Origin: Halomontanus rarus
GTDB taxonomy: Archaea; Halobacteriota; Halobacteria; Halobacteriales; Natrialbaceae
Length of the DNA stretch: 64,000 nucleotides
NCBI RefSeq assembly: GCF_017357405.1
Contig: NZ_CP071597.1
Location: 744,001-808,000 of the forward strand
Reading direction: 5' to 3'
Shown here: one piece after another, positions 1 to 26,626 of the stretch
Position numbering within the stretch: the stretch's first letter is position 1
How the letters are laid out: the number at the start of each line of letters is the position of its first letter
Program-made: the position numbers and the translations under genes
Notes under the pieces: model-generated
The model's input: the letters and a program-made list of their open reading frames with translations, nothing else
Database searches by the model: none
What the model was told of the DNA's origin: nothing

Positions 1-2258
1 GTCTCCTGCTCGAGTTCCACGGTGTAGTTCGTGGTTTCGTTGAGGGTGAGTTCGCCCGTGAACTCCTGTTCGGCGAACCGATCGTCGTTCTCGGGCGGGG
101 AGACGCGCACTCGAGCGTCGCCGGCGAGTTCGATGCCGGGTTCGTCCGCGTTGGGATGGTGGTACAGCCCGTCCGCGGTCGTCAGCTGCGAGCCGATTCC
201 AGTTCTGTGTTCGTTCCGAACGTCGAAGACGTGAACCGTCGCGTTCTCGACGGGGTCGCCGTAGCCGTCGACGACGGACACGTTCAGCAGGTGCCCCTCG
301 GGAACGGTAAGGTTCACGTCGGTGTCGTTCACGCCAAGGTCGACCGGTTCGAACTGGTAGAGGTCGGCGACGCCGTTTCGCCGCGGTTCGAAGCCGCGAT
401 CGCCGATCGCCTTGTAGGTCACGGTCTGGGTGGTGTTCGCTCGGACGGTCGCGCTGTAACTCCCGTTGGCGTCGAGTTCGACGCTGGTGTGGCTCCCGTC
501 GTCGGAGCGAACGGACAGCCGGTCGCCGGCGAGATCGATCCCGCTGGCGGCGGAAACCGTCCCCGAGAGTTCGACGACATCGACCGTCGGCGACTCGAGC
601 GCGGCGATCGATGACGGGAGCCCGAGGTACAGTCCGCCGTCGTCAGCCACCGTCCCGGGGATCCAGTCGTCGGTCCGGTAGAGCAGTTCCGACTTGCCGC
701 TGTCGGCGTGGAGTCCGACGACGGTATCGTGTCCGTCGTCGACGACGCCGACGAGCGTATCGCCGCTCTCGACGACGGTGTCCGCCTCGAGCGCCCGGTC
801 TTCGGTCCACGCCGGCCGGTAGTTCTCGTCGAGGCGGATCGTCGAATCGCCGATCGCGTAGAGACCGGTCGTGCCGTCGTAGAACTCGTACCGACCGGGG
901 TGATCCCACAACTCCTCCGTCTGGCCGTCAGGCGTGAGGTGGTGAACGTGTGTCCACCCGTCCTCGGGGTACTCGACGGTGAACAGGTAGCCGTCGTCGA
1001 CGTCGACTGCGTCGCCGAACTGCGGGTAGTCGTCGATGGGGACGGTCGTGTTCGTCCCGGTTCGAACGTCGTATCGGGCCATCGCCGCGTCGTCCCAGAC
1101 GAGCACCGTGCCGTCGAGGCCGCGTTCGATCTCCCAGAACCCGTCGTTCGCCGGCGCGGGCTCGCTCCACAGCGTCGTCCCGTTCGGGGCGACCGCGCGG
1201 ACCTCGTCCTCTTCGTCGGCACTGCTCAGGTTCGAACCGACGGCGTAGATCGCGTCGGCGTCGCCAACGACGGCGTCCGGTGCGAACGCCGACACGTTCG
1301 TTTCGACGGTACCTGTCGTCTCGTTCAGCACGAGCAGCGATTCGTTAGTCGGCGCGTACACCGCGTTCCGGTCCGTATTCACCGTCGCATCTCCCCACTC
1401 GAACGTCACGGTCTCGGTGTGCGACCACTTCTCGTCACCGGTTACGGGATCGTACGCGGTGAGCTCGCTCTCGCCGTCCCGTTCTTCGACGGCGACGACG
1501 TACTCACCGACGCCGACGATCCACGTCAGGTGGTCGTTCGTGATGTTCCAGCGTTCGCCGCCGTCGGCCGTCTCGAGCGCTTCGAGGACGAACTCGTTGG
1601 TCTCGAAGCTCCCGTCACCGGTGTCGTTGATGGCGACAGAGAAGACGCCGTCGTGGCCGACCGCGAGGGGGCTCTCCTCGATCGAACCGGCGAGGTCGGT
1701 CTCCCAGCTCGGCTCCGGCAGCGGTTCGACGACGGTCAGCCACGTCGGTTCGTCGCCGTCGTCGACAACGTCGTAGCTGGTTCCGTTTCCGTCGCCGATC
1801 GCCTTGGCAAACGTATCGATCGGCGTTTCGCCGGGACCGGTGGTTTCGATCGTCGCCGTCGCGAGGACCACCTCACCGGTGGCGTTCGGCTCGAGTACCT
1901 GGTCACCGTAGGCGACGTCGAGCAGGGCGACTTCGCCATCATCCACGATCGTCGCGTTGCCGCCGTAAGCCGGATCTCCGGCCGGTTCGACGGCGGTGAT
2001 CCGGGCGACGTCGGGCTCGGGAACGACGACGTCGAGTTCGTACGCTCCAACGTCTCCGTCTTCGGGAATCGACGCGACGATATCCACCGCGACCGTTTCG
2101 TTTGATTCGGCCTCGAGTTCGTTCGGCGACGTTCCGACGGTGGCGTTGTCGGCGCTCTGTGCCGTCGCGCCGCCCGCTCCCGCGAGCGCGAGGCCGAGGA
2201 CAACGACCGTCGCGACGAGCACCAGTCGAGTGCCGGTTCCGAGACGACCGTCGCTCAC
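1..2258 (-). CDS. Secreted cohesin-like / PQQ beta-propeller protein (3' end outside window)
   Basis: The minus-strand frame is open from base 2258 to the window edge, so about 752 residues are visible and the C-terminus is missing. A GTG start is chosen because a strong GGAGGTGA Shine-Dalgarno lies six bases before it and the GTGA overlaps the stop of the upstream gene. Residues 1-35 form a signal peptide with hydrophobic core (LVLVATVVVLGLALAGAGG). Residues about 40-150 resemble a cohesin domain (AVDIVASIPEDGDVGAYELDV, later VLATATIETTG). Residues about 175-550 contain repeated W-x-T-D/WSHT-like blades of a PQQ-type propeller, such as YDPVTGDEKWSHT. An Ig-like or carboxypeptidase-regulatory-like segment follows. 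The protein is probably extracellular and may bind the dockerin protein encoded just upstream. The cohesin call is by pattern only and needs a profile search. Confidence 0.85.
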   Translation of the reverse strand, partial: MSDGRLGTGTRLVLVATVVVLGLALAGAGGATAQSADNATVGTSPNELEAESNETVAVDIVASIPEDGDVGAYELDVVVPEPDVARITAVEPAGDPAYGGNATIVDDGEVALLDVAYGDQVLEPNATGEVVLATATIETTGPGETPIDTFAKAIGDGNGTSYDVVDDGDEPTWLTVVEPLPEPSWETDLAGSIEESPLAVGHDGVFSVAINDTGDGSFETNEFVLEALETADGGERWNITNDHLTWIVGVGEYVVAVEERDGESELTAYDPVTGDEKWSHTETVTFEWGDATVNTDRNAVYAPTNESLLVLNETTGTVETNVSAFAPDAVVGDADAIYAVGSNLSSADEEDEVRAVAPNGTTLWSEPAPANDGFWEIERGLDGTVLVWDDAAMARYDVRTGTNTTVPIDDYPQFGDAVDVDDGYLFTVEYPEDGWTHVHHLTPDGQTEELWDHPGRYEFYDGTTGLYAIGDSTIRLDENYRPAWTEDRALEADTVVESGDTLVGVVDDGHDTVVGLHADSGKSELLYRTDDWIPGTVADDGGLYLGLPSSIAALESPTVDVVELSGTVSAASGIDLAGDRLSVRSDDGSHTSVELDANGSYSATVRANTTQTVTYKAIGDRGFEPRRNGVADLYQFEPVDLGVNDTDVNLTVPEGHLLNVSVVDGYGDPVENATVHVFDVRNEHRTGIGSQLTTADGLYHHPNADEPGIELAGDARVRVSPPENDDRFAEQEFTGELTLNETTNYTVELEQE

Positions 2259-4900
2259 GACCGGTCACCTCCGTACCGTCTGACACGCTCGTACAACGCC
2301 TGCACGTCCGCGATCGTCACCTCGTTCGGATCGGTCCCGGAGAAGTTGAACGCGGCTGCGTGGTCCTGCACGGCGGCGGTCTCGCAGTGCTGAAAGAGCG
2401 CCTGAACGTCCACGATGTTGGCCCTGCCGTCGCCGTTGACGTCGTCGAGCAGTCCGTCGCCGGTCGTGTCGGTCGCCGGGGTTCCGTCGCCGGTCACGTC
2501 GACGCTCGGGGGGTCGTCGTACGAGACGACGATCGGCTTCGTCACCGTGTCCGACTCACCGTTCTCGTCCGTGACGATCAGCGTGATCTCGTACTCGCCG
2601 GCCTCGGCGAACTCGTGGGTAATCTCCGGGCCCGTCTCGTCGGTCACACCGTCACCCGTCAGCTCCCACTCGTAGGTAGCGATCGCCGCGTCGGGGCTGG
2701 ACGTGCTGGCATCCGTGAGAGTGACCGTCTCGCCGACGCCCGGTTCCTGCGGGGTCACGGTAAAGTCCGCGGTGAGCACCTCCGCGACGTCGACGGGGTA
2801 CTGTGCCAGTAACGTCTCTCCGTTGGCTCCGACGAACACGAGGCCGACGTATATCCACCCGCCCGGTTCGGCGTCCCCGGGAACGCTGAATTCACCGGAT
2901 CCGTCCTGTGGGACGATGGTCGCAGTTCCGTTCCGACGGGCCGGACACATCGCGATCGCCGAGACGTCCGTCTCCGACGCGTTCGTATAACTGATGGTGA
3001 ACGTCTCTCCGGGGGCCGGCGTCGCCGGCGTGAGAGTCGGTTCGTCGACCGTGAGTGACGTCACGGGCCACCCGCCGATCGTTCTCATTTTGCCGTAGGG
3101 CGTGACGGCCCTCACCTCCACAGTGTTCGTGGCGTCGTCCGGAATGTCGAGTTCGATCCGCCCCTCGCCGTTCGCATCCGTGGTCGTTCGTCCGGCGTCG
3201 AACGTTTCCGCGTCGACGTTCCAGCGGTTTCCGAACGCCGTCACGTCGATTCCCGATTTCGGGTCACCCGTCGCCCGGTCCGTGGCGACGACGTCGACGG
3301 GACCGGTTCCGCCGCTGATCGCACCGGCGTCGGTCTCGATATCGTAGCGTTCGATCGACAGCGAGTGGGTCCTGATCTGCACGCCCTCGTCCTCGAGTTC
3401 GACGCTGCCGACGACGGAGATCCACTCCCCGTCGGGGGCGGTTTCGGGGACCGTGAGAGTGTGCGTCGCCGTCCCCGTCTCGTCCGTTTTGACGGTGGTG
3501 TATTCGAACGGGACGCCGTCGTATCGGTACGAGTACGAGAGGGTCACCGTCTCGTTCGAAATCGGCTCATCGTCTCGGAGGAGCTGGACGGTGACCGGCG
3601 CGTCCGTCCCGATACCAGTCGTGTAGTCCTTAACCGAAATGTCGAACGAGATCGGACCCGAGCCGCCAGAAGACGTCGAGGAGTCGACGAATACCAGTTC
3701 ACTGTCCGCGAGGAAAACTGGCGCTCCATCCGCTTCGATCTCGATCCCGTAGTTGGTCTCTTCGGACGGCGCATCGAACGTGATCGTGAACTGGCCGAAC
3801 TCGTTGGTCGTCGGTGAAAGGACGACGGCGTCCTCATCGGTCGAGAGATCTCGAAGCGTGACCACCAGATCGAGGTTCGAGACGGGCACACCGTCGCGGA
3901 CGACGTGTGCGGCCCACGTCACCGGCTCGTCGATATCGTGTTCGGTCCGTCCGAAAAAGGGCGTCAACGCCTTCAGTTCGCTACTCTCGATTCGAACTCC
4001 CGAAACGGGGGACTTGGCACCGCTAATTCCGTAGGTTCCAGCCAGTCCGGGCGTGATCGAGAGCATCCCGATTCCGTCGTCGAACGTCTGCGTCCGTCCC
4101 AACCTCTCGCCGGCCGGATCCTCGACGACGATCGTTCGGTCGGTGTTCGACTCCGGGACGCCGCCGAGTTCGGAGTAGATCCCCAGCGTCGTTTCGACGC
4201 CGGTGGTCATCGACGTCCGGTGGGGAACGACGGACGTGTACGGGCCCACGAAAACGTACGCCGTGTCGGTCGAACTGGTCGCGTCCGACTCGACGCGAAC
4301 CACGTGCATCCCGACGGACACACCGTCGAGACCGAACTCGAGTCGCACGTTCCCGTCGCCGACCGTCGTCCCGGTTGCCGTCTCGAGTTCGTTCCCCTTC
4401 GCATCCTCGAGCGCCACGCGTATCTCGACATTCTCGACGGGTCGTCGATCCATACCGTACTCCTGCTCGACGGCGCCCGCCCACACCGTCATCGTGTCGC
4501 CCGGCGCCACGTGGCCGGCGGTCGTCGCCGTATCCGTCAGAACCCGAAGCGAGGGCTCGTCGGTCGCCGTCGCTTCGAACGTCCCGCCCTCGACGGTGAA
4601 TTGAGTCGTCCGCTCGGTGAGCCGGCCTCCGTCTCGGAGGATCTCGACGACGTCGTACGTGCCCGGCTCGAGGGTCGCTCGAGGAATCGCCTCTCGACTC
4701 GCGTAGTACGATCGCGTCCCGGTCTCGCGGTTGATGACCTCGACGCCGAGTACGTAATCGTCGGTCGTCTCAGTCGCTGCGGAATCGATCGTCCCACCGG
4801 TCTCGGACCACTCGACCACACCGGTAGCGGTTCCGGTCGCACCGAGGAATCCTGCCATTCCCAGTGCGGTCAGAAATGATCTCCGATCGTGATTTTCCAT
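2255..4900 (-). CDS. Tat-exported multidomain protein with PKD and C-terminal dockerin
   Basis: The protein has 881 residues. The N-terminus (DRRSFLTALGMAGFLGATG) is a twin-arginine signal. The middle is a chain of Ig-like beta domains of no family I can name. A PKD domain lies at about 705-790 (FTVTPQEPGVGETVTLTDAS ... YEWELTGDG ... HEFAEAGEYEITL). A type I dockerin fills about 815-875: the first calcium loop is canonical (DVNGDGRANIVDVQALF), while the second (FSGTDPNEVTIADVQALY) is degenerate. There is no C-terminal anchor, so the dockerin may tether it. Its stop overlaps the GTG of the cohesin-like gene (GTGA), so the two are almost certainly cotranscribed and could be a matched dockerin-cohesin pair. 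Confidence 0.9.
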   Translation of the reverse strand: MENHDRRSFLTALGMAGFLGATGTATGVVEWSETGGTIDSAATETTDDYVLGVEVINRETGTRSYYASREAIPRATLEPGTYDVVEILRDGGRLTERTTQFTVEGGTFEATATDEPSLRVLTDTATTAGHVAPGDTMTVWAGAVEQEYGMDRRPVENVEIRVALEDAKGNELETATGTTVGDGNVRLEFGLDGVSVGMHVVRVESDATSSTDTAYVFVGPYTSVVPHRTSMTTGVETTLGIYSELGGVPESNTDRTIVVEDPAGERLGRTQTFDDGIGMLSITPGLAGTYGISGAKSPVSGVRIESSELKALTPFFGRTEHDIDEPVTWAAHVVRDGVPVSNLDLVVTLRDLSTDEDAVVLSPTTNEFGQFTITFDAPSEETNYGIEIEADGAPVFLADSELVFVDSSTSSGGSGPISFDISVKDYTTGIGTDAPVTVQLLRDDEPISNETVTLSYSYRYDGVPFEYTTVKTDETGTATHTLTVPETAPDGEWISVVGSVELEDEGVQIRTHSLSIERYDIETDAGAISGGTGPVDVVATDRATGDPKSGIDVTAFGNRWNVDAETFDAGRTTTDANGEGRIELDIPDDATNTVEVRAVTPYGKMRTIGGWPVTSLTVDEPTLTPATPAPGETFTISYTNASETDVSAIAMCPARRNGTATIVPQDGSGEFSVPGDAEPGGWIYVGLVFVGANGETLLAQYPVDVAEVLTADFTVTPQEPGVGETVTLTDASTSSPDAAIATYEWELTGDGVTDETGPEITHEFAEAGEYEITLIVTDENGESDTVTKPIVVSYDDPPSVDVTGDGTPATDTTGDGLLDDVNGDGRANIVDVQALFQHCETAAVQDHAAAFNFSGTDPNEVTIADVQALYERVRRYGGDRS
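2265..2272 (-). promoter_or_regulatory. Strong Shine-Dalgarno inside the upstream gene
   Basis: The minus strand reads GGAGGTGA six bases before the GTG at 2258. It lies in the last codons of the dockerin gene, whose TGA overlaps the GTG. This fixes the start of the cohesin-like gene and suggests translational coupling of the pair. Confidence 0.75.
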
Positions 4901-5222
4901 TCGTATATACTATTCTCTAATCCATACCTTATTATTCTGCTGACAGTATGATTTGAAATCAGTTGTGGCTATTTTATCGTATCTATCCGATAAACAACCG
5001 AAATAGTAGCTGAATATAGTAATTCGGTTCTATCGTGGCAATACTAAAGTATGTATATTAACGCAGAATTATGACCTTCCACACCCATTTTAATTTCATA
5101 TCAAAATAGTACTCTAACTGTCGGTGGTCGAAACCGAAACCCGACCCCATTCCGACTTGACGACAAACGGGTGAACACCGTTCGAACCACGTGATCTCGA
5201 GGCGGTTCACGAGGTTCAGCCT
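4901..5222. other. AT-rich intergenic region, no gene seen
   Basis: About 320 bases between two minus-strand genes. It is markedly AT-rich and holds TATA-like stretches (for example AGTATATA just upstream of 4900 on the minus strand), so it probably carries the promoter of the dockerin operon and the 3' end of the giant gene. No RNA gene or ORF is supported. Confidence 0.5.
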
Positions 5223-8200
5223 TCAGTGACCGTGTTGTCGACGCAGTACTGCTGCTGCGAGCAGTGCTATCACGGCCGCCGCGACGCCAAAGCCGGGGAC
5301 CTCGTAGGCGACTTCGGACTCGTCGTCCGTGCCGTCGTCATCCGCCAAGTCATCGTCTCGGGGATCGTGGACGTCCAACGACCCCGTCTCGTTGTCGTCA
5401 CCGACGGTAAGTGACTGCGTGGTCTCGCCTGCGGATCCGTCGGGGACGGTACTCTCAAGCGTTACCGACGTCGTCTCGTCTGTGCCCAGTTCGACCGTGG
5501 TTTCGTCGACGACCGTCCCGTCAATCGCGTAGGTGACCGTTCCGGAGGTGGACTGTTCACCTGCGTTTCCGACGACGGCAGTCACCGCAACGGACTGCCC
5601 GGCGTCGGCTTCGGTCGGGAAGTCGACCTCGTCGAGAACGAGTTCGGCATCGGGACCGTTATCGGACGACTCGACGGAAACGGTCGCGGTCGCCTCGTCG
5701 TCCTCGCTTTCGGCGGTGACCGTCACATCCTGACCGGCCATCGACTCGGCGATGGCCGCCGACGCGGAGATCATTGCCGTCTCGCCGCTTCCGAGCTGGA
5801 CGTCTTCTCGTTGGACGACGTTGCCGTCCAAAGCGAGTGTGACCTCCCGTTCGCCGTCAGCGTCGCCGACGTTTTCCACGGCGACATCGATGGAGAGTTC
5901 TTCTCCGACGGCCGCCTCGTCTGCAACGTCGTTGATCGTCACTTCGAATTCTGGCGACTCCGAACCGGGTTCGGGGAGCACGATCCCACCGTCACCACCT
6001 TCGTTCTCCGCCCCATCGTTTTCGCCACCGAGTTCGAGCGTTCCAGTCATCTCGTCGTCGGCATCCGCTCTCTGTTCGGCGTTCACCCACGCGGCGATGT
6101 CGAGGGTATCACCGTCGGCTCCACCACTGACATCGACGGTAATCGTGTACGACGAGTTTCCCGCGGCGGGTTCAAGGAATTTGACACGGTTGTCTTCGAT
6201 GGTGAGCGCATCGTCGCTCGCGAGTTGGACGTCGAATCCGTCCGGATCGAATTCGACGGTCGTGCCCGCGGAGGCATTGGTTTTGACCGTGACGTTGAAT
6301 TGGCCATCGGGACTCACGTTTCCGGAGTGCTCGAGTGAGTCGACCAACCCTGTGGTCGCTTCACTTTCGGAGACCGTCAGCGTTCGACTCGTCGAGTCGT
6401 TCTCGCTGGAGACCGTCACATCGGTGCCGTCGTCGGCGAGTTGGATGTCGGAGGTGAACCAGACATCTTGGCTCTCGCCGGTCTCGAGGTGAACGATTTC
6501 GGTCGTCTCGACACCGTTCCTTTCGGTCGCAAACGCGATCGGCTGCACGCCCGCTCGCTCGCCCGTGTTTTCGATCGTCGCAGTGACGCCCATCTCTTCG
6601 CTCTCGGTGACCTGAGTGTTGCTCTCGTCATCGTTGATGGCCACTTCGAAGAACGCCGAGCCGGAATCTGTGCCGACATTGACTGCAGAGACCGTCTCGG
6701 CGTCCGCATCGGTCCTGTTCTGTGCGTTCGTCCACGCAGCGATGTCGACGAGATCGCCGTCACTGCCGCCGATCACGTCCGCGGAGATCGTATACGTCGA
6801 GTCGCCTGCCGTGGGATCGAGGAACTCGACGCGTCCGTTGTCGATTGCGACCGCATCGTCGCTCGAGAGTTCGACGTCGAATCCGTTCGGAGCGAACTCG
6901 ACGACCGTACCCGCTGAGTCTTCGGTTTCGACCGTGACGTCGAACGTCCCATCCGGACTCACGTTCGCCGGATGCTCGAGCGAGACGGCGTTACGCTGGG
7001 TATCGTTCTGGTCGTCTCCGTTGCGATCGCCCTCGATATTGATCGTCGAGGTGACGTTGTCGTCGGCATCTTCCCGGGATTCGGCGTTTATCCACGCGTC
7101 GATGTCGATGGTATCGCCGACACTCCCATTGACGACGTCGACGGTGATGGTGTACGTCGAGTTGCTCGCGGCGGCATCGAGGTACTCGACGCGGTTGCCC
7201 TCGATGGTGACCGCAGACCCGCTCTCGAGATCGAGGTCGACGTCGGAGCCGTTCGGAGCGAACTCGACGACCGTGCCCGCTGAGTCTTCGGTTTCGACCG
7301 TGACGTCGAACGTTCCGTTCTGGCTCACGTTCGCCGGGTGCTCGAGCGAGACGAGTCCTCTCTCGCCTTCGTTTCGGACCTGTTCGTCGCTGTCGTTCTG
7401 GGAACCGTCATCACCGCCGCTTTGATTACCGTCGTCGCTGTCGTTCTGGTCGCCGCCGTCCTGTCCGTCGATCTCGAACGTCGTATTCGCCTCGCCGTCG
7501 GCCTCCGCCCTCTGTTCGGCGTTCGTCCACGCGGCGATGTCGCCGGTGTCGCCGTCGCTACCGCCGATTACGTCCGCGGTGATCGTATACGTCGAGTTGC
7601 CCGCTGTGACGTCGAGGAACTCGACGCGATTGTTCTCGACGGTGACCGCATCGTCGCTCGCGAGTTCGACGTCGAACCCACTCGGATCGAACTCGACGAT
7701 CGTGCCAGCGGAGTCTTCGGTTTCGACCGTGACGTTGAATCGACCGTCCGGACTCACGTTCGCCGGATGTTCGAGCGAGACGCCTTCGCCGGCTCCGCTC
7801 TCGGCGTTCGTCGAATCGATCGTCATCTCGGTCGTCTGCGTCGAAGTCTGGGCCTCCTCCTGATACCACTGGATGAGGTCGACCAGATCCTGAAACGCGA
7901 TTTCGGTCTGGTCGACGACCCCGTCGGCCTGATAGGCCTGTATCGCGTCGACCAGGTCCTGGAAGGAGAGGTCGCCACTGGCACCGTTCTGTCCCGTGAC
8001 CGCGTCCCAGACGCCCTGGTCGACGCCGGACGGGTGGCCCTCGGTGACGGTCAGCGTGCCGTTGATCGAATCGTTGTCGGACGAGACCGCGTACGTGTAC
8101 GTGCCCGGATCGAAGTCACCGGCGGGGACGCCGTCGAAGGCGACCGTCTCGTTCGCCTTGCCGGCGAGTGAGACGTTCGCAGCCGTCCCCTCGAAGACCA

Positions 8201-11200
8201 CGGTACCGGTGTCGGAAGCGACGACCTGCATCTCGAGATCCTGCACACCCGACTCGGTGCCGGTGTTTTCGACGGTGGCGCTCACGTCGATCGGATCGCC
8301 GCCCACCCCAACTGCGGTGTCAGTCGGCGTTAATCCCGATAGCTCGTAGGTCGCCGGCGTCTCCGTGGCGTCGACGGTCAGCGTTCGCGTTGCGGAGTCG
8401 TTTTCGCTCGCGACCCGTACGTCGGTACCGTCGTCGTCGCGGTCAACCCGATGGGTAAACGTGAGCGACCGACTCCCAGACGAGGCGAGTTGGACCGGTT
8501 CGGTCGCGACGGTCTCGTTGCCGACCGTAAACGTAACCGTCTGCGTCGCCGGTGATTCGCCAGTGTTCTCGACTGTCGCGTCGATCTCGAGCACCTCTCC
8601 CTCGGTGACCGGGTCGTTCGTGTCGCCGATCTCGACGGCGACGTATCCCTCGTCGGGTTCGGAATTCACCTCGACCGACACGGTGTCTTCCCCGTCGTCG
8701 CTCGAGACCGACGCGGTGTAGGTGCCGGCGTCTCCAGATTCCGTCGGAAGGGTGAATGTGTGTGTGTCCGATTCGGCGGCCCCGAGCGAGAGGGTCGTCG
8801 AGTCAGTTCCCACGCCGGGAACGTCGAGTTCGACGGTCTGCGTTTCAGAGACGTCACCGGTATTTTCGACTTTCGCCGTCACCTCGAGTTCGCCGCCCTC
8901 GACCGGGTCGTTCGTGTCGACGATCTCGACCTCGAACAACGCCTGCTCGAGCACGGTGATAGACGCACTCTCGGACGCGTTATCGCTCTCGACCGTCGCC
9001 GTATACGACCCGGCGTCGGATTCGCCCGTGGGGATCGAGAGCGTCTCGGTCGTCGACTCGCCGCCGTCCAACGAGACGCTCGTCGAGTTACTCCCCAGCC
9101 CGTCGATCTCGAGGGAGACCGTCTGTGCGTCGGAGACGTCACCCGTGTTCGTGATCGCGACATCAACCTTGACGGGCCCACCTTCGGCGGATTGGGTGGC
9201 CTCCACGCTCTCGATCGAGAAGAACGGATCGTCCTGGATCTGGTCTAGCGTAATGTTTTCGTCCGCGGGTGGAGAGACGCTGGTCCGGGTCGTCGAGTGA
9301 TATTCGTCCGCGTCGACTTCGATATCGTAGGTTTCGGTGACCGGTCGATCGCCGCTCCACGGAGTCGTTCCGACGTGGGTCCCGTCGAGGTAGACGTCCG
9401 CGTTCTCCGGCGTGGACGTCACCGAGAGCGTTCCGTACTCGATCTCGAGATCGAAGTACTCCTCTGCCCCTGGCGTTACACCGGACCGCGTCACCGACTG
9501 ATAGTCGTCGGCATCGACCGTGATCTCGTAGGATTCGGTAACTGGCCGATCGCCACTCCAGGGGGTCGTCCCGACCAAATTCCCGTCGAGATAGACGTCG
9601 GCACCGGTCGGTGAGGACGTCACCGAGAGCGTGTCTTCCTGCGGCTCGAGATCGAAGTGTTCCTCGGCACCGGGAGACACGCCGGTCCGCGTCATCGACT
9701 GGTAATTGTCGGCGTCGACCTCGATATCGTAGGAGTCGGTGACCGGCCGGTCGCCGCTCCACGGAGTAGTTCCGACTCGGTTCCCGTCGAGATAGACGTC
9801 CGCGTTCTCCGGCGCGGACGTCACCGATATCGTCTCTCGTTGCGGTTCGAGATCGAAGTACTCCTCGGAACCGGGCGAAACACCGGTCCGCGTCACCGAC
9901 TGGTAGCCGTCGGCGTTAACTTCGATATCGTAGGTGTCGGTGACCGGGCGATCCCCGCTCCACGGGGTCGCCCCGACTAGATTTCCGTCGAGATAGACGT
10001 TAGCACCGGTCGGTGAGGACGTCACCGAGAGCGTCTCCTGTTGGGGCTCGAGGTCGAAGTGTTCCTCGGCACCCGGCGTCACACTAGTTCGCGTCTTCGA
10101 GTGATAGTTGGCGGCGTCGACGGTGATATCGTACGACTCGGTGACCGGGCGATCCTCGCTCCACGGGGTCGTTCCGACGTGAGTCCCGTCGAGGTACACG
10201 TCGGCGCCGTCCGGCGCGGACGTTACGGAGAGCGTCTCCTGCTGGGGCTCGAGGTCGGCGTCGAGTTCGTCCACCGACGCCGGATCGACGTCGGAGAACG
10301 TCTTCGATTGGTAGTTGTCGGCATCGACGACGACCTCGTAGGTGTCGAGTCCGTAAATCTGATCCTGCCACGTCGTCTGTCCGACGTGTTCCCCGTCGAT
10401 CGTGACGTCGGCACCAGAGGGCGACGACGTCACCTGCAGCGTTTCCTGTGCGTTCGTCTCGGCGTTCAGGTCGATGCTGTCGACGGTGTATCCCGCCGAG
10501 TAGCTTTCGAGACCTTCCGGAACCTCGAACGAGACTGTATTCGACTGCTGCAATTGTGACGGGTCCACCGAGACGGTGTGGGTCCCTTCGCTGGTCGTCG
10601 TGTCGACGCGGTGTCCGTTGACGAACACGAGAAGCGACACCGACGACGAGCTTTCATCGGCGACGTCACTGACGTCGTACGTTAACTCGAGGTCGCCCTC
10701 CATGCTCTCGAGTTGCTGTGAGGTGAGGGAGAAATCCTGGATCTCCCGATAGTTGTGCTGGTCGTCCATGATGATCGTCCACTCCGGATTGGACATCACC
10801 GCCTTGTCGTCGGCACGAATCAGCCGAGTCTTCATATTTTCTCCCGACGCACTGATCGAGAAGCCGGGGTCGACACCAGGTTCGTTCGTATCGTATATCC
10901 GATCAACAACGTAATCCGTTCTCATCGTGTTGGTGTCTCGCCACGGAGGATCCCCCCAACTGAGATACTGGTTACTTTGGGGGAACGGGACGTCGCCCAA
11001 TCGGGTGTAGAAATTGACCTCATCCTCATTGGCGTTTACCTCCTCCCAGAGAATACTGTATTCGATCCGGTTCACGCTGGTCGCGTACCCCTCGAACGGC
11101 GGTGCACCGATCTTCTGGGCGACCGTCTCTTGGTCGACCAGCGTCACGTATTGCTTCCCGATCGAGTCATCTGTACTACCCGTATTTTCGGGAGTCAACG

Positions 11201-11546
11201 TTATCTGCGAATCGTGCGAGTACTCTTCCTCGTACCAGTTTATCGTGTAAATCTGCCAGTCGACGTCCTCGCTGATCCGGACATCGTCGACGGATCGATC
11301 GATCGACGCCGTCGTATATTCCGAATCGGTGAGCGCCACCGAACGGTCGTCGGCGTACGACTGGTCGTCATCCGCTATCGATCCCGAGTCGACCATCAGG
11401 CTCGTCCGGTCGTGGCTCTCTGCCGTCCCGTCTCCGAGCGCCATCCCGGTCCCCATCGCAAAAAGGGACAGACAGACCACGGCTGTGAAGACGAGCGCAG
11501 AAACGAAGTGGCGACGGTCGATCGTGCTCGCTCGAGTCACCGCCAC
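5223..11546 (-). CDS. Giant PGF-CTERM surface protein with PEGA, CARDB-like and dockerin-like modules
   Basis: The protein has 2107 acidic residues. An N-terminal signal segment (FVSALVFTAVVCLSLFAMG) is followed by a unique domain to about residue 365. Six PEGA repeats of about 67 residues fill roughly 368-765 (motifs such as GADVYLDGTHVGTTPWSGDR). Four CARDB-like domains with V.NTG motifs lie at about 770-1165. A dockerin-like module sits at about 1172-1230 (LSFQDLVDAIQAYQ, then FQDLVDLIQWYQ). Four copies of a domain beginning SLEHPANVSPDG, acidic Asn/Asp/Gly linkers and further CARDB-like domains follow. The tail PGFGVAAAVIALLAAA plus basic residues is a PGF-CTERM signal, normally cut by archaeosortase ArtA and linked to lipid. 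The start is GTG at 11546. GTG at 11540 is better spaced from a GAGGTG and cannot be excluded. Probably a surface scaffold or adhesin. Confidence 0.92.
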   Translation of the reverse strand: MAVTRASTIDRRHFVSALVFTAVVCLSLFAMGTGMALGDGTAESHDRTSLMVDSGSIADDDQSYADDRSVALTDSEYTTASIDRSVDDVRISEDVDWQIYTINWYEEEYSHDSQITLTPENTGSTDDSIGKQYVTLVDQETVAQKIGAPPFEGYATSVNRIEYSILWEEVNANEDEVNFYTRLGDVPFPQSNQYLSWGDPPWRDTNTMRTDYVVDRIYDTNEPGVDPGFSISASGENMKTRLIRADDKAVMSNPEWTIIMDDQHNYREIQDFSLTSQQLESMEGDLELTYDVSDVADESSSSVSLLVFVNGHRVDTTTSEGTHTVSVDPSQLQQSNTVSFEVPEGLESYSAGYTVDSIDLNAETNAQETLQVTSSPSGADVTIDGEHVGQTTWQDQIYGLDTYEVVVDADNYQSKTFSDVDPASVDELDADLEPQQETLSVTSAPDGADVYLDGTHVGTTPWSEDRPVTESYDITVDAANYHSKTRTSVTPGAEEHFDLEPQQETLSVTSSPTGANVYLDGNLVGATPWSGDRPVTDTYDIEVNADGYQSVTRTGVSPGSEEYFDLEPQRETISVTSAPENADVYLDGNRVGTTPWSGDRPVTDSYDIEVDADNYQSMTRTGVSPGAEEHFDLEPQEDTLSVTSSPTGADVYLDGNLVGTTPWSGDRPVTESYEITVDADDYQSVTRSGVTPGAEEYFDLEIEYGTLSVTSTPENADVYLDGTHVGTTPWSGDRPVTETYDIEVDADEYHSTTRTSVSPPADENITLDQIQDDPFFSIESVEATQSAEGGPVKVDVAITNTGDVSDAQTVSLEIDGLGSNSTSVSLDGGESTTETLSIPTGESDAGSYTATVESDNASESASITVLEQALFEVEIVDTNDPVEGGELEVTAKVENTGDVSETQTVELDVPGVGTDSTTLSLGAAESDTHTFTLPTESGDAGTYTASVSSDDGEDTVSVEVNSEPDEGYVAVEIGDTNDPVTEGEVLEIDATVENTGESPATQTVTFTVGNETVATEPVQLASSGSRSLTFTHRVDRDDDGTDVRVASENDSATRTLTVDATETPATYELSGLTPTDTAVGVGGDPIDVSATVENTGTESGVQDLEMQVVASDTGTVVFEGTAANVSLAGKANETVAFDGVPAGDFDPGTYTYAVSSDNDSINGTLTVTEGHPSGVDQGVWDAVTGQNGASGDLSFQDLVDAIQAYQADGVVDQTEIAFQDLVDLIQWYQEEAQTSTQTTEMTIDSTNAESGAGEGVSLEHPANVSPDGRFNVTVETEDSAGTIVEFDPSGFDVELASDDAVTVENNRVEFLDVTAGNSTYTITADVIGGSDGDTGDIAAWTNAEQRAEADGEANTTFEIDGQDGGDQNDSDDGNQSGGDDGSQNDSDEQVRNEGERGLVSLEHPANVSQNGTFDVTVETEDSAGTVVEFAPNGSDVDLDLESGSAVTIEGNRVEYLDAAASNSTYTITVDVVNGSVGDTIDIDAWINAESREDADDNVTSTINIEGDRNGDDQNDTQRNAVSLEHPANVSPDGTFDVTVETEDSAGTVVEFAPNGFDVELSSDDAVAIDNGRVEFLDPTAGDSTYTISADVIGGSDGDLVDIAAWTNAQNRTDADAETVSAVNVGTDSGSAFFEVAINDDESNTQVTESEEMGVTATIENTGERAGVQPIAFATERNGVETTEIVHLETGESQDVWFTSDIQLADDGTDVTVSSENDSTSRTLTVSESEATTGLVDSLEHSGNVSPDGQFNVTVKTNASAGTTVEFDPDGFDVQLASDDALTIEDNRVKFLEPAAGNSSYTITVDVSGGADGDTLDIAAWVNAEQRADADDEMTGTLELGGENDGAENEGGDGGIVLPEPGSESPEFEVTINDVADEAAVGEELSIDVAVENVGDADGEREVTLALDGNVVQREDVQLGSGETAMISASAAIAESMAGQDVTVTAESEDDEATATVSVESSDNGPDAELVLDEVDFPTEADAGQSVAVTAVVGNAGEQSTSGTVTYAIDGTVVDETTVELGTDETTSVTLESTVPDGSAGETTQSLTVGDDNETGSLDVHDPRDDDLADDDGTDDESEVAYEVPGFGVAAAVIALLAAAVLRRQHGH
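9240..10440 (-). repeat. Tandem PEGA-coding repeats, about 201 bp period
   Basis: Six tandem units encode PEGA domains, with boundary strings near 10230, 10029, 9827, 9627 and 9423. The five downstream units are very similar and share the DRPVT, DADxYxS and EEHFDLEPQ segments. The first unit is divergent. The likeness suggests recent duplication or gene conversion. Confidence 0.85.
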
Positions 11547-11975
11547 ACCACCTCATGGAACCGAACGCGACTCCGGTGAGCGCGAGATGTTCTCAGTTCC
11601 CCCAACGGCGGAGAGCGATTCTTTCTTTCAAAAGAACTCTCTGTCGTTCCCATTAGTAACTCAAACATATTATCGGCGATTAATTAGTTTTTGGGTGACG
11701 TGTCTGTCTTGCTGCTCCTTTCGATTCGGACGCGTGTGTCGAACCGATAATTCAGATACCTCGGTACGCCATCGACCGTCACCGGTCCCGATTCGCGTGG
11801 GTTCAGCGAATCCGCCCGTTGATTGGAAACGGCTCGAATCTTGTGGACCGCACTCGAGTGGTAGGAATACTCGGTCCCGTCAGAGTCCGCGTTCCAACCG
11901 GAATCTCTCTTCAGTTAGTATATTCTCTCCTGAGTATCACCAGTATTTATGAATTATGGGTAACATCACACTATC
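11547..11975. promoter_or_regulatory. Divergent promoter region of two surface-protein genes
   Basis: These 429 bases separate the minus-strand giant gene from the plus-strand Tat protein. A TATTTAT at about 11944-11950 lies about 26-32 bases before the ATG at 11976, the spacing expected for a TATA box giving a leaderless or near-leaderless transcript. AT-rich text at 11660-11700 could hold the opposite promoter. No ORF is supported here. Confidence 0.5.
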
Positions 11976-14900
11976 ATGGACGGATTCGAGATTAACCGGC
12001 GCAATATGCTTACACTCACTGGAGCGAGTGTGTTCGGCGTTGCGTCCGCGTCTGGCGCACAGGATACCGGGGATCAACAGCTCTCGTACGGCGACACCAT
12101 CGAAAGTTCGCTGTCACAGGACAGTCCGTACGACGAGGGGTACAACGGGTACCACGAGACCTATACGTTCTCCGGCGAGGAAGGGGACGTCGTCTCGATC
12201 GAGATGCGACCGACCGTCGGGGACGGCGTCGCGGAAGCAGATCACGCGGCTAGACTCGAGCTGTACGATCCCGCCGGTGAAGAGATCAGAGACGCGGATC
12301 CGTACAACCCCGGCTACGGAGCGGCAGGTATAAACGAAGCTCAGTTGGAAACGACGGGAACGTACACGATCGTCGCAACCACCGCGGATTACAGCAGAGT
12401 CAGTTCGTACGACAACGACGAGGAGAGTTTCAATGATACGTTCTCCTACGAACTCCGCCTCCACGAATTTCTGGGTGCGGGAACGGAGATCGGCTACGAC
12501 TCGACTACGACCAGCGAACTCACCACCGAGAGCAACTTCCAGTACGAGATAGATCTGAACGGCTACTACGACGTCTACACGTTTTCCGGCACGGAAGGCG
12601 ACATTATCTCTCTCGAGATACGGCCAGACGTCGAGGGCGGGGTTACGGCAGAAGACTATGCGCTCCGACTCGCACTGTACGACCCCGCCGGCGAAGAGCT
12701 TAGAGACGCGTTTCCGCACAACGTTGGCTACGGGGCGACGGGGATGAACGAGGTCGAATTACCGACAGATGGAACGTACACGCTCATTGTAACGACAGCA
12801 CAGCCCGACTACGTCAGTGCGTACGCGAACAACGACGAGAGCTTCTATGATACGTTCGCGTATGAACTTCGCCTCCACGAACTCCTCGGGGATGGCACGG
12901 AGATCGATTATAACTCGAGCACGACCGGCGAACTTACTAGCGAGAGTAACTTCCAGTACGAGATAGATCTGAACGGCTACTACGACGTCTACACGTTTAG
13001 TGGCGAAGAAGACGACGTCATCTCCCTTGAGATGCGCCCGCAACGGGGTGAGAACGTCGACATAACAGAACACGCTCCCAGACTTGCGCTGTACGACCCC
13101 GCCGGTGAAGAGATCGAAGACGCGTTTCCGAACGACGTCGGCTACGGAGCGACAGGAATGAACGAAGTCCAGTTGGAATCGACCGGAACGTACACCGTCA
13201 TCGCGACCACAGCTCGGGCCGACTACGTCAGTGCCTACGTGGGCGACGAGAGCTACTACGATACGTTCGCCTACGAACTCCGCCTGCACGAGTTCCTGGG
13301 TGCGGGAACAGAAATAAACCACAACTCAAGTATCAACGGCGAACTCTCCAGAGAGAGTAACTTTCAAGATTATACCGGTCTCAACGGCTACTACGACGTC
13401 TACACGTTCTCCGGTCAGAGTGGGGACGCGGTCGATATCTCGGTCGTTCCGGACGCGTATCCGGACGGAACCGATCATGCGGTTCGAATCGAACTCCTTG
13501 ATCCGACCGGAGCAGAGATTCAGGACACATTCCCGAACAGCGTTGGGTACGGGGCGACGAGTCTGGACGATGTCGAGTTACCCGTCGACGGGATGTACAC
13601 CATTGTCGTCACTACGGCGAACCACACCAGTATCACGTCGTATTCTAATCGGGAAGAGTGCTACTACGACACCTTCGGATACACGCTCCAGTGTTACGGC
13701 GTTTCCGACGGGGTCGATCGATCACTCGAGTACGGCGAGACGGTCACTGATACGATCACGACCGACGATATCTACGCCGATCGTCTCACCGGCTACCACA
13801 AGCGGTACTCGTTCGAGGGTGAGGAGGGGACGACGATCTCGGCCGAAATGCGCATGGCCGTCCCAGACGGACACGCCGCCCACCTCCGCCTCTACGGCCC
13901 CGACGGGACTCGAGTTGAGGAGAGAGAGGCTGAGAGCGGTGCCGTGCAGCTAGACCGCGTCGAACTGGAGGCGTCCGGAACGCACACCCTCGTCGCGACG
14001 ACCGCGGAGGCGTCGACGGCTACCGTGTACGATTCCACCGAAGCGGCCCGAACCGCCACTCCACAGTACGAACTCCGATTCTACGAGTACGTCGGCGACC
14101 GCGAACTCCTCGTCGACGGCGACACCGTCACCACCGAGTTGAATTCGACGGCCAACTTCCTCGAGTCCCTCGACGGCTACTACGACGCGTACGTGACGAC
14201 CCTGAGCGAGGGCGACGAGTTGTCCGTCCAGATGAACATCGACCAGCAAGAGAGCAACGCGGCACAACTCATCGTACTGGAACCGGACGAGTCGACCGCG
14301 GAGGACACCAACGTGGACAGCGGCCACGCGTCGATCGACGGGTTGACCGCCGAGATGACGGGCGAGCACACCATCGTCGCCACCTCCGAACCCTCGAGTA
14401 GCGTCTACGACACTACTGTAGCGGGACAGCGGGCGAGCTTCCAGTACGAACTGACCGTCGACGGGCCGGCCAACAATCCGCCGATGGTCGAAGCGATCAC
14501 GGCGGAACCCGAGCGGGCGGCCGTCGGCGACCTCGTCGAACTCTCCGTCGATGCACTCGATCCGAACGGCGACGACCTCGCGTACCAGTGGGCGCAGGTG
14601 ATCGGGGCGTTCCCCGATCCGGAGGCCGACATCGACGCCGCGACGTCGCCCACGGCGAGTTTCGTCGCGCCCGAGGCGGACGGCGAAACGCAACTCACCT
14701 TCGAGGTGACGGTCTCGGATACCGCCGGCGGTGAACTGACCAAGCAGGTCACGATGATCGTCGATCCCGAGCTCGACTCCACGACCGATCCAGCCGCCGC
14801 GTTCGACGTCACCCCGGCCGATCCGGCCGTCGACGAAACGGTGACGTTCGACGCGTCGAACGCGACCGGCACCATCGTCGAGTACCGCTGGGACTTCGAC

Positions 14901-15242
14901 TTCGGGGGAACGTTCAGCGCCGATGCGACGACGGCCGACCCCGTTACGACCCACGCCTACGGCGAGTCTGGCACGCGGACGGTTGCCCTCGACGTCGAAA
15001 ACGAGGCGGGAACCGTCGACAGAAAAACGATCGACGTGACCGTGATCGACGGCTCGGAACACGCTTCGGGTGTCGACCAGAGCGTCTGGGACGCGGTCAC
15101 CGACCAGAACGGTGGCGAGGACGAACTGACCTTCCAGGACCTCGTCGACGGCATTCAAGCCTACCAGAACGACGAGCCGGTCGGCGGCCTCGAGCTCTCC
15201 TATCAGGATCTGGTCGACCTCATCCAGTGGTACCAACAGTGA
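11976..15242 (+). CDS. Tat-exported repeat protein with PPC-like, PKD and C-terminal dockerin-like modules
   Basis: The protein has 1088 residues. The Tat signal is NRRNMLTLTGASVFGVASASG-like. Six modules of about 120-130 residues follow to about residue 830. Four are close copies (NGYYDVYTFSGEEGD, LALYDPAGEE, VGYGATGMNEVQL, GTYTVIATTA) and resemble bacterial pre-peptidase C-terminal (PPC) beta-sandwiches. Two Ig/PKD-like domains lie at about 832-1025 (YRWDFDFGG in the second). The last 60 residues are a dockerin-like module (LTFQDLVDGIQAYQ, YQDLVDLIQWYQQ) nearly matching the internal one of the giant protein across the intergenic region. It has no hydrophobic C-terminal anchor, so it could be retained through this module. 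No enzymatic domain was recognised. Confidence 0.9.
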   Translation: MDGFEINRRNMLTLTGASVFGVASASGAQDTGDQQLSYGDTIESSLSQDSPYDEGYNGYHETYTFSGEEGDVVSIEMRPTVGDGVAEADHAARLELYDPAGEEIRDADPYNPGYGAAGINEAQLETTGTYTIVATTADYSRVSSYDNDEESFNDTFSYELRLHEFLGAGTEIGYDSTTTSELTTESNFQYEIDLNGYYDVYTFSGTEGDIISLEIRPDVEGGVTAEDYALRLALYDPAGEELRDAFPHNVGYGATGMNEVELPTDGTYTLIVTTAQPDYVSAYANNDESFYDTFAYELRLHELLGDGTEIDYNSSTTGELTSESNFQYEIDLNGYYDVYTFSGEEDDVISLEMRPQRGENVDITEHAPRLALYDPAGEEIEDAFPNDVGYGATGMNEVQLESTGTYTVIATTARADYVSAYVGDESYYDTFAYELRLHEFLGAGTEINHNSSINGELSRESNFQDYTGLNGYYDVYTFSGQSGDAVDISVVPDAYPDGTDHAVRIELLDPTGAEIQDTFPNSVGYGATSLDDVELPVDGMYTIVVTTANHTSITSYSNREECYYDTFGYTLQCYGVSDGVDRSLEYGETVTDTITTDDIYADRLTGYHKRYSFEGEEGTTISAEMRMAVPDGHAAHLRLYGPDGTRVEEREAESGAVQLDRVELEASGTHTLVATTAEASTATVYDSTEAARTATPQYELRFYEYVGDRELLVDGDTVTTELNSTANFLESLDGYYDAYVTTLSEGDELSVQMNIDQQESNAAQLIVLEPDESTAEDTNVDSGHASIDGLTAEMTGEHTIVATSEPSSSVYDTTVAGQRASFQYELTVDGPANNPPMVEAITAEPERAAVGDLVELSVDALDPNGDDLAYQWAQVIGAFPDPEADIDAATSPTASFVAPEADGETQLTFEVTVSDTAGGELTKQVTMIVDPELDSTTDPAAAFDVTPADPAVDETVTFDASNATGTIVEYRWDFDFGGTFSADATTADPVTTHAYGESGTRTVALDVENEAGTVDRKTIDVTVIDGSEHASGVDQSVWDAVTDQNGGEDELTFQDLVDGIQAYQNDEPVGGLELSYQDLVDLIQWYQQ

Positions 15243-18362: not shown

Positions 18363-19751
18363 TCAGTCCGAACCTTCGACCTCGAGCGAGGTCAGTTGGC
18401 CGCCGTCGTCTCCGACGAGGATCGCACCGTCGGCGACCACCGGAGAGGACGTGAGTTGCGAGTCGGATGCGTAGCGCCACAGGCGGTCGCCCTCCGCGAG
18501 GGAGACGGCGACCAGCCCGGACTCGGCGGCGACGAGCGCGACGTCGCCGACGATCGTCGGCGAGGTCTCCGGCGACGCCACCTGTCGCGTCGACATCGTC
18601 GTTCTCCTCCTGGACGCGAACGACGCTCGCTCGTCGAGCGGCGTCTTCCACCGAGCGGAGCCGTTCTCGGCCTCGAGAGCGACCAGTCGCTGTCCGCCGT
18701 CGTTGACAACGACGAGGTCGTCCGCGACGGCGACCGAGGAACCCACCGCGGGCGAGCGTTGCTGTAACAGCTCGAACGGTGCCGTACGTCGGGAACGCGT
18801 GGACGAGAACGCGTCCTCGCTTCGCCACCGCTCGGTGCCGCTGCTCGCCTCAAGCGCCAACGGAACGCGACCGTCGACGTAGACCGTTCCGTCGACGACC
18901 GCGGGCGACGCTCGGACCGCCCAGTCTGTGGCGTGGTCCCACTCGCGGGTCCCGTCAGTCGCGTCGACAGCGGCGACACCCGAGTCGGTGCCGACGACGA
19001 CCAGCCCGTCGGTAACCGCAGGCGAGGAGAGGCCCGGTTCCGGCGCCGGTTGCCGCGACTGGAATTCGAACTCCGTCGGCGCGACTCGCCACTCCACGGT
19101 CCCTTCTGCGAGTGCGACGGCGACGAGGTCGCCCGCCGACGTCCCGACGTAGGCGATGCCGTCGACGACCGCGGGCGAGGAGTACGTCGGTGCAGATTGT
19201 TCCTGATAGCTCGCGAAACTCGCCGCGGAGTCGGCCAGGTCGATCCGTCGCACGTCACCACCCGAGTGATCGGTGACGACGAGCGTCTCACCCGCCGGAC
19301 AGACGACCAGGTCGTCGGTGACCGCCGGCGAACCGGTGACCGAGGCCTCGAGGTCGACCGTCCAGTTTGTCTCGCCGCCCTCGAGCGCGTGGAGCGTCGC
19401 GTCGACGCCGACGTAGACCGTTCCGTCGTCGACCGACGGCTCCGTCCGAAGCGCGGTGGAAAGGTCGGCACTCCACACCAGTGACGGCTCGCTTCGCGGA
19501 CTGACCGCGTCTACGAATCCGTCGTTCGTCGGTCCGGAGCGGAAGGACCGCCAGTCGTTTGGTTCCGTGTCGTCCGTCGCCTCGGTGCTCGAGGTATCGG
19601 CTGTGTCGTTCGAGTCGGTTGTCGTCTCGCTACTCGAGTCATCGGTCGTATCGTTCGGCGACTCGTCCTCAGAATTCCCGACGCACCCCGCACAGAGCGA
19701 TAGCACTCCGGCACTCGCCGTCAGTATCCCTCGTCGCGATTGCAGTCGCAT
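18363..19751 (-). CDS. Tat lipoprotein with PQQ-type beta-propeller
   Basis: The protein has 462 residues. The N-terminus (SRRGILTASAGVLSLCAGC) joins a twin-arginine motif to a lipobox with Cys23, so it should be exported folded and lipid-anchored. A Ser/Thr/Asp-rich linker spans about residues 25-65. The rest repeats blades of the form SPAVxDGxVYVGxxxGxLxALxxxxGxxxW, as in outer-membrane BamB-like and PQQ-dehydrogenase propellers. No dehydrogenase catalytic residues are evident, so it is probably a binding or scaffold protein. The gene stands alone. Confidence 0.88.
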   Translation of the reverse strand: MRLQSRRGILTASAGVLSLCAGCVGNSEDESPNDTTDDSSSETTTDSNDTADTSSTEATDDTEPNDWRSFRSGPTNDGFVDAVSPRSEPSLVWSADLSTALRTEPSVDDGTVYVGVDATLHALEGGETNWTVDLEASVTGSPAVTDDLVVCPAGETLVVTDHSGGDVRRIDLADSAASFASYQEQSAPTYSSPAVVDGIAYVGTSAGDLVAVALAEGTVEWRVAPTEFEFQSRQPAPEPGLSSPAVTDGLVVVGTDSGVAAVDATDGTREWDHATDWAVRASPAVVDGTVYVDGRVPLALEASSGTERWRSEDAFSSTRSRRTAPFELLQQRSPAVGSSVAVADDLVVVNDGGQRLVALEAENGSARWKTPLDERASFASRRRTTMSTRQVASPETSPTIVGDVALVAAESGLVAVSLAEGDRLWRYASDSQLTSSPVVADGAILVGDDGGQLTSLEVEGSD

Positions 19752-26129: not shown

Positions 26130-26626
26130 ATGAGCAATTCGGAGCACGTGGCAACGGACCAACCCGCTTACCAGCGGGCGAACACGAGTATACCACGAGC
26201 AGTCATTCACAAGCAAATCCTGAACGCCGCAGCGTCGGACCCAGACGCATCACTGGAAACGATTGCGAACGACGTTAGCGGTGCGACTACGGCGCTCGTC
26301 GAGAAAGTCCTCGAGGGTATGGTGATCCCGGATCCGATGGTGAAGACAAGGACGAAGTCGAGAGCGATGAGACGAAAAAAGACGAAAAGAACGACGAAAC
26401 ACCGGCGGTCGAGACAGCGACATCCTTCCTCGAGTCCGAACCAGAATTGGACGACTCCGACTCGGTCTCGGATACGCCTAATGTGCGGCCACTCGAGTAT
26501 TTAGAAAGAGACGACGAGTCGAAAACGTACGATCTGGCTACGGTGTTCGTGTCCGCAACAGATAGCCCGCGCCGAGCAACACGACGACCGCCGGCAGGAG
26601 ACCGAAGCCGGGCGAACCGTCGCTGA
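26130..26626 (+). pseudogene. Frameshifted and truncated wHTH-type haloarchaeal gene
   Basis: The first 62 residues read well (YQRANTSIPRAVIHKQILNA, ETIANDVSGATTALVEKVLE). One base is then missing near 26316: restoring it turns GAG-GG-TAT into EEYGDP and continues as DGEDKDEVESDETKKDEKND. The C-terminus, which in similar haloarchaeal proteins should be a winged-helix domain, is absent; the restored frame runs into the antisense of the next gene's 3' end and stops at 26626. So there are two lesions: a frameshift and a 3' truncation. Family recognition rests on memory of similar proteins. Confidence 0.6.

Follow-up and report, generated by a model that had tools for sequence, protein, structure and literature searches.

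A putative surface cohesin-dockerin pair and a cellulosome-like gene island in the haloarchaeon Halomontanus rarus

Cellulosomes are plant-fibre-digesting machines that have otherwise been described from anaerobic bacteria and fungi. Here we analysed a window of 64,000 bp (the whole stretch, bases 744001-808000 of contig C1) in the 5.17 Mb genome of Halomontanus rarus, which shares its genus with Natronoglomus mannanivorans AArc-m2/3/4 (G007). We consider it quite probable that the first bases of this window encode a dedicated non-cellulosomal surface cohesin-dockerin pair, and that the largest such system of the genome is a cellulosome-like island elsewhere on the same contig. The closest described archaeal system is the non-cellulosomal cohesin and dockerin of Archaeoglobus fulgidus (cohesin PDB 2xdh). 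Unlike it, the window pair has overlapping genes, a PGF-CTERM-like tail, and propeller and macroglobulin-like partners, and the island has multi-cohesin and glycoside hydrolase (GH) parts. The scaffoldin-like proteins of anaerobic methanotrophic (ANME) archaea, as described in PMC9012536, have up to five cohesins plus a dockerin (compare genomes G336, G127 and G267 below), and are associated there with transporters and further proteins rather than with a series of enzymes that degrade polysaccharides. Given these proteins, multi-cohesin archaeal proteins as such are not new.

The putative complex of the island resembles the clostridial cellulosome in its multi-cohesin protein, its dockerin-bearing glycoside hydrolases and its candidate one-cohesin surface protein. 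It differs in being archaeal and haloalkaliphilic (its relative Natronoglomus is described as aerobic), and in having cohesins that Pfam does not recognise, predicted Tat-type (twin-arginine translocation) export and a scaffoldin that itself carries GH5. Instead of the S-layer homology (SLH) or sortase anchors of bacteria given in PMC9012536, the island would use a PGF-CTERM-like tail. The homologous island in the same genus is the GH5 cluster of Natronoglomus mannanivorans, whose genes are tabled in PMC10963439; there the scaffoldin appears as a 1,755-aa endoglucanase of GH5/CBM6 make-up, the one-cohesin protein, 258 aa long, is entered as an S-layer glycoprotein, and 'cohesin', 'cellulosom' and 'scaffold' occur 0 times in the main text. 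In a survey of 305,693 genomes (PMC11557425), 33 bacterial species had cellulosome gene sets; the passages on 'archae' found in a 2025 review (PMC12484212) deal solely with the A. fulgidus pair in its use as a tool; and PMC10267330 names cellulosomes in its introduction as one of four bacterial models, while 'dockerin' and 'cohesin' occur in it 0 times. Among the papers listed by searches of open-licence PMC literature, preprints aside, none describes a haloarchaeal cellulosome by its title or the start of its abstract, and subscription papers may hold more. If binding is shown, the island would be a cellulosome in Archaea for which the literature searched gave no description.

The overlapping genes of the probable cohesin and dockerin in the window

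The coordinates that an earlier note, made from the letters of this DNA, gave for four open reading frames (ORFs) in 1..15242 were borne out by our ORF listing (Table 1); the protein of 1-2258, however, is truncated by the window edge, its complete length being 1487 aa. Beyond the edge it continues with a second cohesin-like domain, W2 (residues ~754-895), CARDB repeats and a PGF-CTERM-like tail. The propeller ascribed to it gives a weak match in the window protein (BamB, E 0.011), but three orthologs show it clearly (PQQ_2, 8e-49 to 1e-111). For its N-terminal domain W1, which had been called a cohesin from pattern, we built a profile from W1 and three orthologs (G110, G039 and G034) and made profile-profile comparisons by hhalign. 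This profile matched a haloarchaeal module family with a predicted cohesin fold at 96.7% (E 3.2e-10). Against a set of 15 haloarchaeal proteins positive for PF00963 it reached 93.7% (E 2e-7), and the CARDB domains of the same protein, taken as the negative control, gave 0.9-8%. The G110 ortholog also matches PF00963 directly (E 4.9e-5, 24.0 bits, just below the cut-off of 24.1), and a W2-type profile matches the module family at 97.5-97.6%. A protein homolog search with the W1 region returned nothing at E <= 0.001. On the profile comparison and the G110 ortholog, a cohesin is very probable at residues 37-173 of the 1-2258 protein.

In the 881-aa protein encoded upstream, Pfam finds PKD_4 (4e-13), MG2 (1e-7) and Dockerin_1 (0.05), and TAT_signal scores 14.2 bits, below its cut-off of 16.7. 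The type I dockerin claimed for this gene is type-I-like by its match to a Natronoglomus sequence (G007:C42:52169-52399), to which window residues 795-873 are 44% identical (E 9.8e-12) and which is itself PF00404-positive above the cut-off (E 5.3e-6); but the window dockerin lies below that cut-off (E 0.05, 14.2 bits against 22.9), and its second repeat is degenerate. Its counterpart in G039 reaches E 4.8e-4 and 20.7 bits with PF00404. Our own dockerin hidden Markov model (HMM) scores the window dockerin at 3.8e-28, which is not independent because the window dockerin is among the seeds, as the window's own modules are for the W-type HMMs as well.

The two genes share the GTGA overlap that had been reported, preceded by a ribosome-binding-like GGAGGTGA motif. 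The propeller protein of the window is matched in 12 of the 125 family genomes (E <= 1e-10), and the W1 region is covered in four of these, our own included. In all four, belonging to four genera, a dockerin gene lies directly upstream of the W1-type gene and the frames overlap, by 4 bases in our genome and G110, and by 1 base in G034; in G039 the overlap is 8 or 17 bases, according to which start is chosen. The upstream partner is of macroglobulin/PKD type in the window and of GLUG type in G110 and G039, and the downstream proteins of G110, G039 and G034 carry PQQ propellers. Thus the module pair is kept while its passengers change, as is predicted for a docking pair, and the adjacency kept in four genera supports the cohesin-dockerin pairing that the earlier note had drawn from the coupling. 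Its guess that the locus is non-cellulosomal and serves surface display or adhesion also stands, as none of the four proteins of 1..15242 carries a glycoside hydrolase (Pfam, E <= 1), and the macroglobulin-like, PKD, GLUG and propeller partners fit it. With this good gene-order support, we assign the window pair, as a putative new member, to the archaeal non-cellulosomal cohesin-dockerin class.

The partner of a cellulosomal cohesin can be encoded at a distance from it. As our genome has many cohesins and 31 dockerin matches, the window dockerin might instead dock on the island scaffoldin or another cohesin, with W1 serving other dockerins and the overlap meaning shared expression only. We regard this as unlikely. 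The window dockerin is 50-58% identical to seven dockerins of its own class but on average only 33% identical to the 12 island dockerins compared, which disfavours it as an island member; it is without their TT/VT loop residues, and the adjacency with W1 in four genera speaks for the neighbour as its partner.

Further cohesin and dockerin genes lie close together in our genome and its relative. At ~976-980 kb of C1 (L117:1707-6247, + strand), a subtilase with a dockerin is followed by a two-cohesin PGF-CTERM-like protein, the overlap being 1 base. In Natronoglomus, a locus with a common neighbouring gene (L102) has a PPC-like dockerin protein beside a W2-type cohesin ORF. A 745-aa protein of our genome, phosphatase-like by inspection (L003:2055-4292, + strand), combines a cohesin-like domain with a dockerin, and sits 4.6 kb from the only PF00963 match that a search over our genome found, L003:8955-9800. 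This match was missed by the family-wide PF00963 run, and PF00963 counts are therefore lower bounds.

The island and its counterparts in other haloarchaea

The island lies on the same contig outside the window (C1:1622552-1659782; L037, L038 and L039), where 13 PF00404 matches fall within 37 kb. The scaffoldin candidate is a GH5 protein with 10 tandem cohesin-like modules and the anchor candidate is a one-module protein, and eight of the 12 island dockerin ORFs scanned carry GH5, GH10 or GH81 domains. The earlier remark that no glycoside hydrolase is seen holds for the window locus. For the genome, however, the cellulosome-type island elsewhere on the contig contradicts the idea that there is no enzymatic side. 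An island-type module (a homolog) was modelled with a predicted local distance difference test (pLDDT) score of 93.4, and cohesins fill the top of its PDB structure list; according to this model, the island modules have a cohesin fold. In PDB sequence searches, the top five of 18 matches to a mixed profile (A2) were cohesins or scaffoldins (E 0.002-0.017), and one of four matches to profile A3 was a cohesin (E 0.0075), while Pfam calls one of 13 anchor-type proteins a cohesin. No carbohydrate-binding module (CBM) was called by Pfam on our scaffoldin at E <= 0.01; CBM6 is listed for its Natronoglomus homolog in the tabled genes of PMC10963439. By inspection, the first loop of island dockerins in this genus (L037-L039, L105-L107) often has S/T for D (TGSGSTTTTD), and this S/T-rich loop might fit low calcium in soda brines.

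Within each genome, the island dockerins are much more alike than the proteins that carry them. We compared 65 modules (12 in G000, 15 in G007, 17 in G085, 11 in G066, and 5 each in G096 and G010), a set that omits modules shorter than 58 aa and one of the 13 G000 island matches, for which the ORF of the other strand had been chosen. In the six genomes, dockerins are on average 74-86% identical and the rest of the same proteins 29-37%; between genera, dockerins are 44-68% identical. We then took each enzyme's best match in another genome, with rest identity >= 0.5 over >= 250 aligned residues and the G000-G007 pair (one genus) omitted. In the resulting 72 cross-genus pairs, which are not independent, the mean identity is 0.64 for the rest and 0.48 for the dockerin, the dockerin being less conserved than the rest in 68 pairs and lying under both within-genome means in all 72. 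This pattern suggests that dockerins follow something common inside each genome, for which its cohesins would be the natural candidate.

At least one island-type module is present in 53 of the 125 family genomes (E <= 0.001), and a broader model detects modules in at least 135 of the 392 genomes of the order, from at least 45 of 95 genera (E <= 1e-9), these counts being lower bounds since at most 10 candidates were scored per genome. Two or more modules in one frame occur in 13 of the 125 family genomes. Four or more PF00404 matches (E <= 0.01) were found in 11 of these 13, against 2 of the 112 others, as counted by eye from tables (Fisher p 3e-12), and PF00963 shows multi-cohesin frames in the two others (G029 and G031). 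The Natronoglomus island has 8+1 modules; that of G085 has five in a frame truncated at the end of the contig, and one more, with GH5, GH9 and GH81 on dockerin proteins; and that of G066 has 3+1, with GH5, GH10 and PL11. G096 has three modules and G010 two, with no one-cohesin anchor in the stretch fetched. G127 (taken as Halococcoides cellulosivorans HArcel1), G336 and G267 encode multi-cohesin proteins, of which several also bear a dockerin. Such C-terminal dockerins were observed at L150:10102-13200 (- strand) in G336, L153:4363-8427 and L155:3690-5888 (+ strand) in G127, and L154:12140-13774 (- strand) in G267, and they would allow stacked scaffoldins. In G031, a 2087-aa PGF-CTERM-type protein has 14 PF00963 cohesin stretches (L111:6162-12425, - strand), and the four dockerin proteins scanned beside it (L112) are all S8 subtilases, and some of these chains also contain cohesins; we read this locus, from its domains, as a protease counterpart of the cellulosome.

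Several results weigh against a docking pair in the window and a cellulosome in the island. For W1, the HMM check against PF00963 that the earlier note proposed gave no match at E <= 1 on the window protein itself, and plain HMMs of the island cohesins (A1 and A7) miss the domain; the W2-type profile reaches only 10% with PF00963-positive proteins, and the tail of the 1487-aa protein scores 22.6 bits, under the cut-off of 24.5. As for the island, Pfam does not call its modules cohesins, the scaffoldin-type profile reaches only 9% with PF00963-positive proteins, and the sequences that the pure scaffoldin profile retrieved from the PDB include no cohesin; the tail of the anchor candidate scores 20.8 bits against the same cut-off, and on our scaffoldin no dockerin is seen that would tie it to the cell. 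The Fisher p overstates the association because the 13 genomes are related, seven of them being in one genus. Finally, over 15 genome pairs, the identities of cohesins and dockerins are not significantly correlated (Spearman 0.41, p 0.12). This last result would also suit an alternative in which the dockerins of these haloarchaea work by themselves, as end caps that bind substrate or are stabilised by calcium, the modules of cohesin fold being repeats that form a stalk or serve adhesion and have some other ligand. Published statements point the same way: PMC13260240 takes a haloarchaeal dockerin as likely for substrate binding, citing Natronoglomus, and PMC10963439 counts the type I dockerin among putative carbohydrate-binding domains. 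However, dockerins are alike within a genome whatever enzyme carries them, subtilases carry them too, the multi-module genomes are the dockerin-rich ones, and dockerin and cohesin genes are coupled in pairs. We therefore give this alternative a small probability and retain the reading of a docking pair in the window and a cellulosome-like system in the island.

Other proteins of the window

The 2107-aa and 1088-aa proteins of 1..15242 are candidate members of the pair's assembly only. The PGF-CTERM end claimed for the former is confirmed (TIGR04126, 29.4 bits against a cut-off of 24.5). The earlier note had also given both a shared dockerin-like module. The repeat is real, the two double-repeat modules (SGVDQGVWDAV..FQDLVDLIQWYQ in the 2107-aa protein) being 68% identical over 60 aa, but the profile of this FQDLVDLIQ module matches dockerins at only 12%, which leaves its dockerin nature unsupported. 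The module occurs in 4 of the 392 genomes of the order (E <= 0.001). It could still be a calcium-free dockerin that makes both proteins part of the window assembly, as the gene clustering, the two-repeat build and a relative with an EF-hand-like loop (the second ORF of L142, FDTDNDGNIEVGE) would suggest. In the same direction, the G089 homolog of the window dockerin protein (28% identity, residues 111-822) ends in another two-repeat module and not in a dockerin. We find this quite improbable, given the low match to dockerins and to the G089 module (0.8%), the internal place of the module in the 2107-aa protein, the lack of any receptor found and its occurrence in so few genomes. The L142 loop and the G089 module swap hint that the module may be similar in job to a dockerin. 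In G089, five consecutive complete proteins of L101 (C42) and a sixth in L115 end in a shared VxTxGLRxAIDDWR..LLRDVIDxWR two-repeat module, and one of them is the dockerin-less homolog of the window dockerin protein.

Over the 168 window ORFs, five HMMs built here gave no further cohesin or dockerin, and the module model gave one weak extra match at 57987-58973 (0.00013). Among the 14 window ORFs scanned with Pfam, to which the search for them in the window was confined, no glycoside hydrolase was found. A giant 2541-aa protein with CARDB (5.8e-34) and PEGA domains at 26538-34163 (- strand) is akin in make-up to the 2107-aa protein, a free-standing 462-aa PQQ_2 propeller protein (8.4e-39) lies at 18363-19751 (- strand), and a TnpB-like protein (Cas12f1-like TNB domain, 2.6e-17), probably from a transposon, lies at 47897-49081 (+ strand).

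Table 1. Features located in the first 15,242 bases of the window
Feature	Position	Strand	Basis or content
Cell-surface cohesin protein, first 752 aa of 1487 aa	3..2258	-	Cohesin, propeller-like region and CarboxypepD_reg in the window
Putative cohesin domain W1, residues 35-182, core 37-173	1713..2156	-	hhalign; PF00963 in ortholog
GTGA overlap, dockerin-gene stop and cohesin-gene start	2255..2258	-	Sequence
881-aa protein	2255..4900	-	Tat-like start, macroglobulin-like (MG2/MG4) and PKD domains, C-terminal dockerin
GGAGGTGA ribosome-binding-like motif of the cohesin gene	2265..2272	-	Within the dockerin-gene end; stops 6 bases before the start codon
Putative dockerin module, residues 802-873	2282..2497	-	First calcium-loop-like repeat DVNGDGRANIVD complete, second degenerate (inspection)
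2107-aa surface protein	5223..11546	-	6 PEGA and 7 CARDB stretches, PGF-CTERM; candidate member only
PGF-CTERM sorting motif of the 2107-aa protein	5238..5300	-	TIGR04126
Internal double-repeat module of the 2107-aa protein	7857..8036	-	Repeat comparison
1088-aa protein	11976..15242	+	4 PPC stretches, PKD-type domains; candidate member only
C-terminal double-repeat module copy of the 1088-aa protein	15060..15239	+	Repeat comparison

Proposed docking and its meaning for haloarchaea

Drawing on the sequences, module homology, one predicted fold, gene order and its conservation, and the homogenisation of dockerins, we infer binding, specificity, anchoring and export as follows. The 1487-aa protein would present its N-terminal cohesin, while its PGF-CTERM-like tail probably anchors it. 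The 881-aa protein would be exported, probably by Tat, and its C-terminal dockerin would plug into this cohesin, so that a macroglobulin/PKD-type head is shown on the cell. The window pair would be one of several such systems in the genome, the island being the largest, in which the GH5 10-cohesin protein would act as the scaffoldin, the one-cohesin PGF-CTERM-like protein as the surface anchor, and the 13 dockerin-bearing proteins, largely GH5, GH10 and GH81 enzymes, as the cargo. Because the partner genes overlap, the window pair makes specificity directly testable.

More generally, we think it likely that true cellulosomes are made by archaea that live with oxygen and in extreme salt. In this view, several haloarchaeal genera have sets in which a scaffoldin with multiple cohesins is joined by glycoside hydrolases with dockerins and, in some genera, by a surface anchor with one cohesin, and the same kit of parts also serves protein breakdown, as in G031, and one-to-one surface docking, as in the window. 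These sets would have been overlooked because many of the cohesins are below the sight of Pfam and the dockerins have been read as carbohydrate-binding domains. If this is true, the haloarchaeal cellulosome would bring the machine into another domain of life and into settings with oxygen and near-saturated salt; it would help to explain how natronoarchaea attack insoluble mannan and cellulose, and would supply salt-proof cohesin-dockerin pairs.

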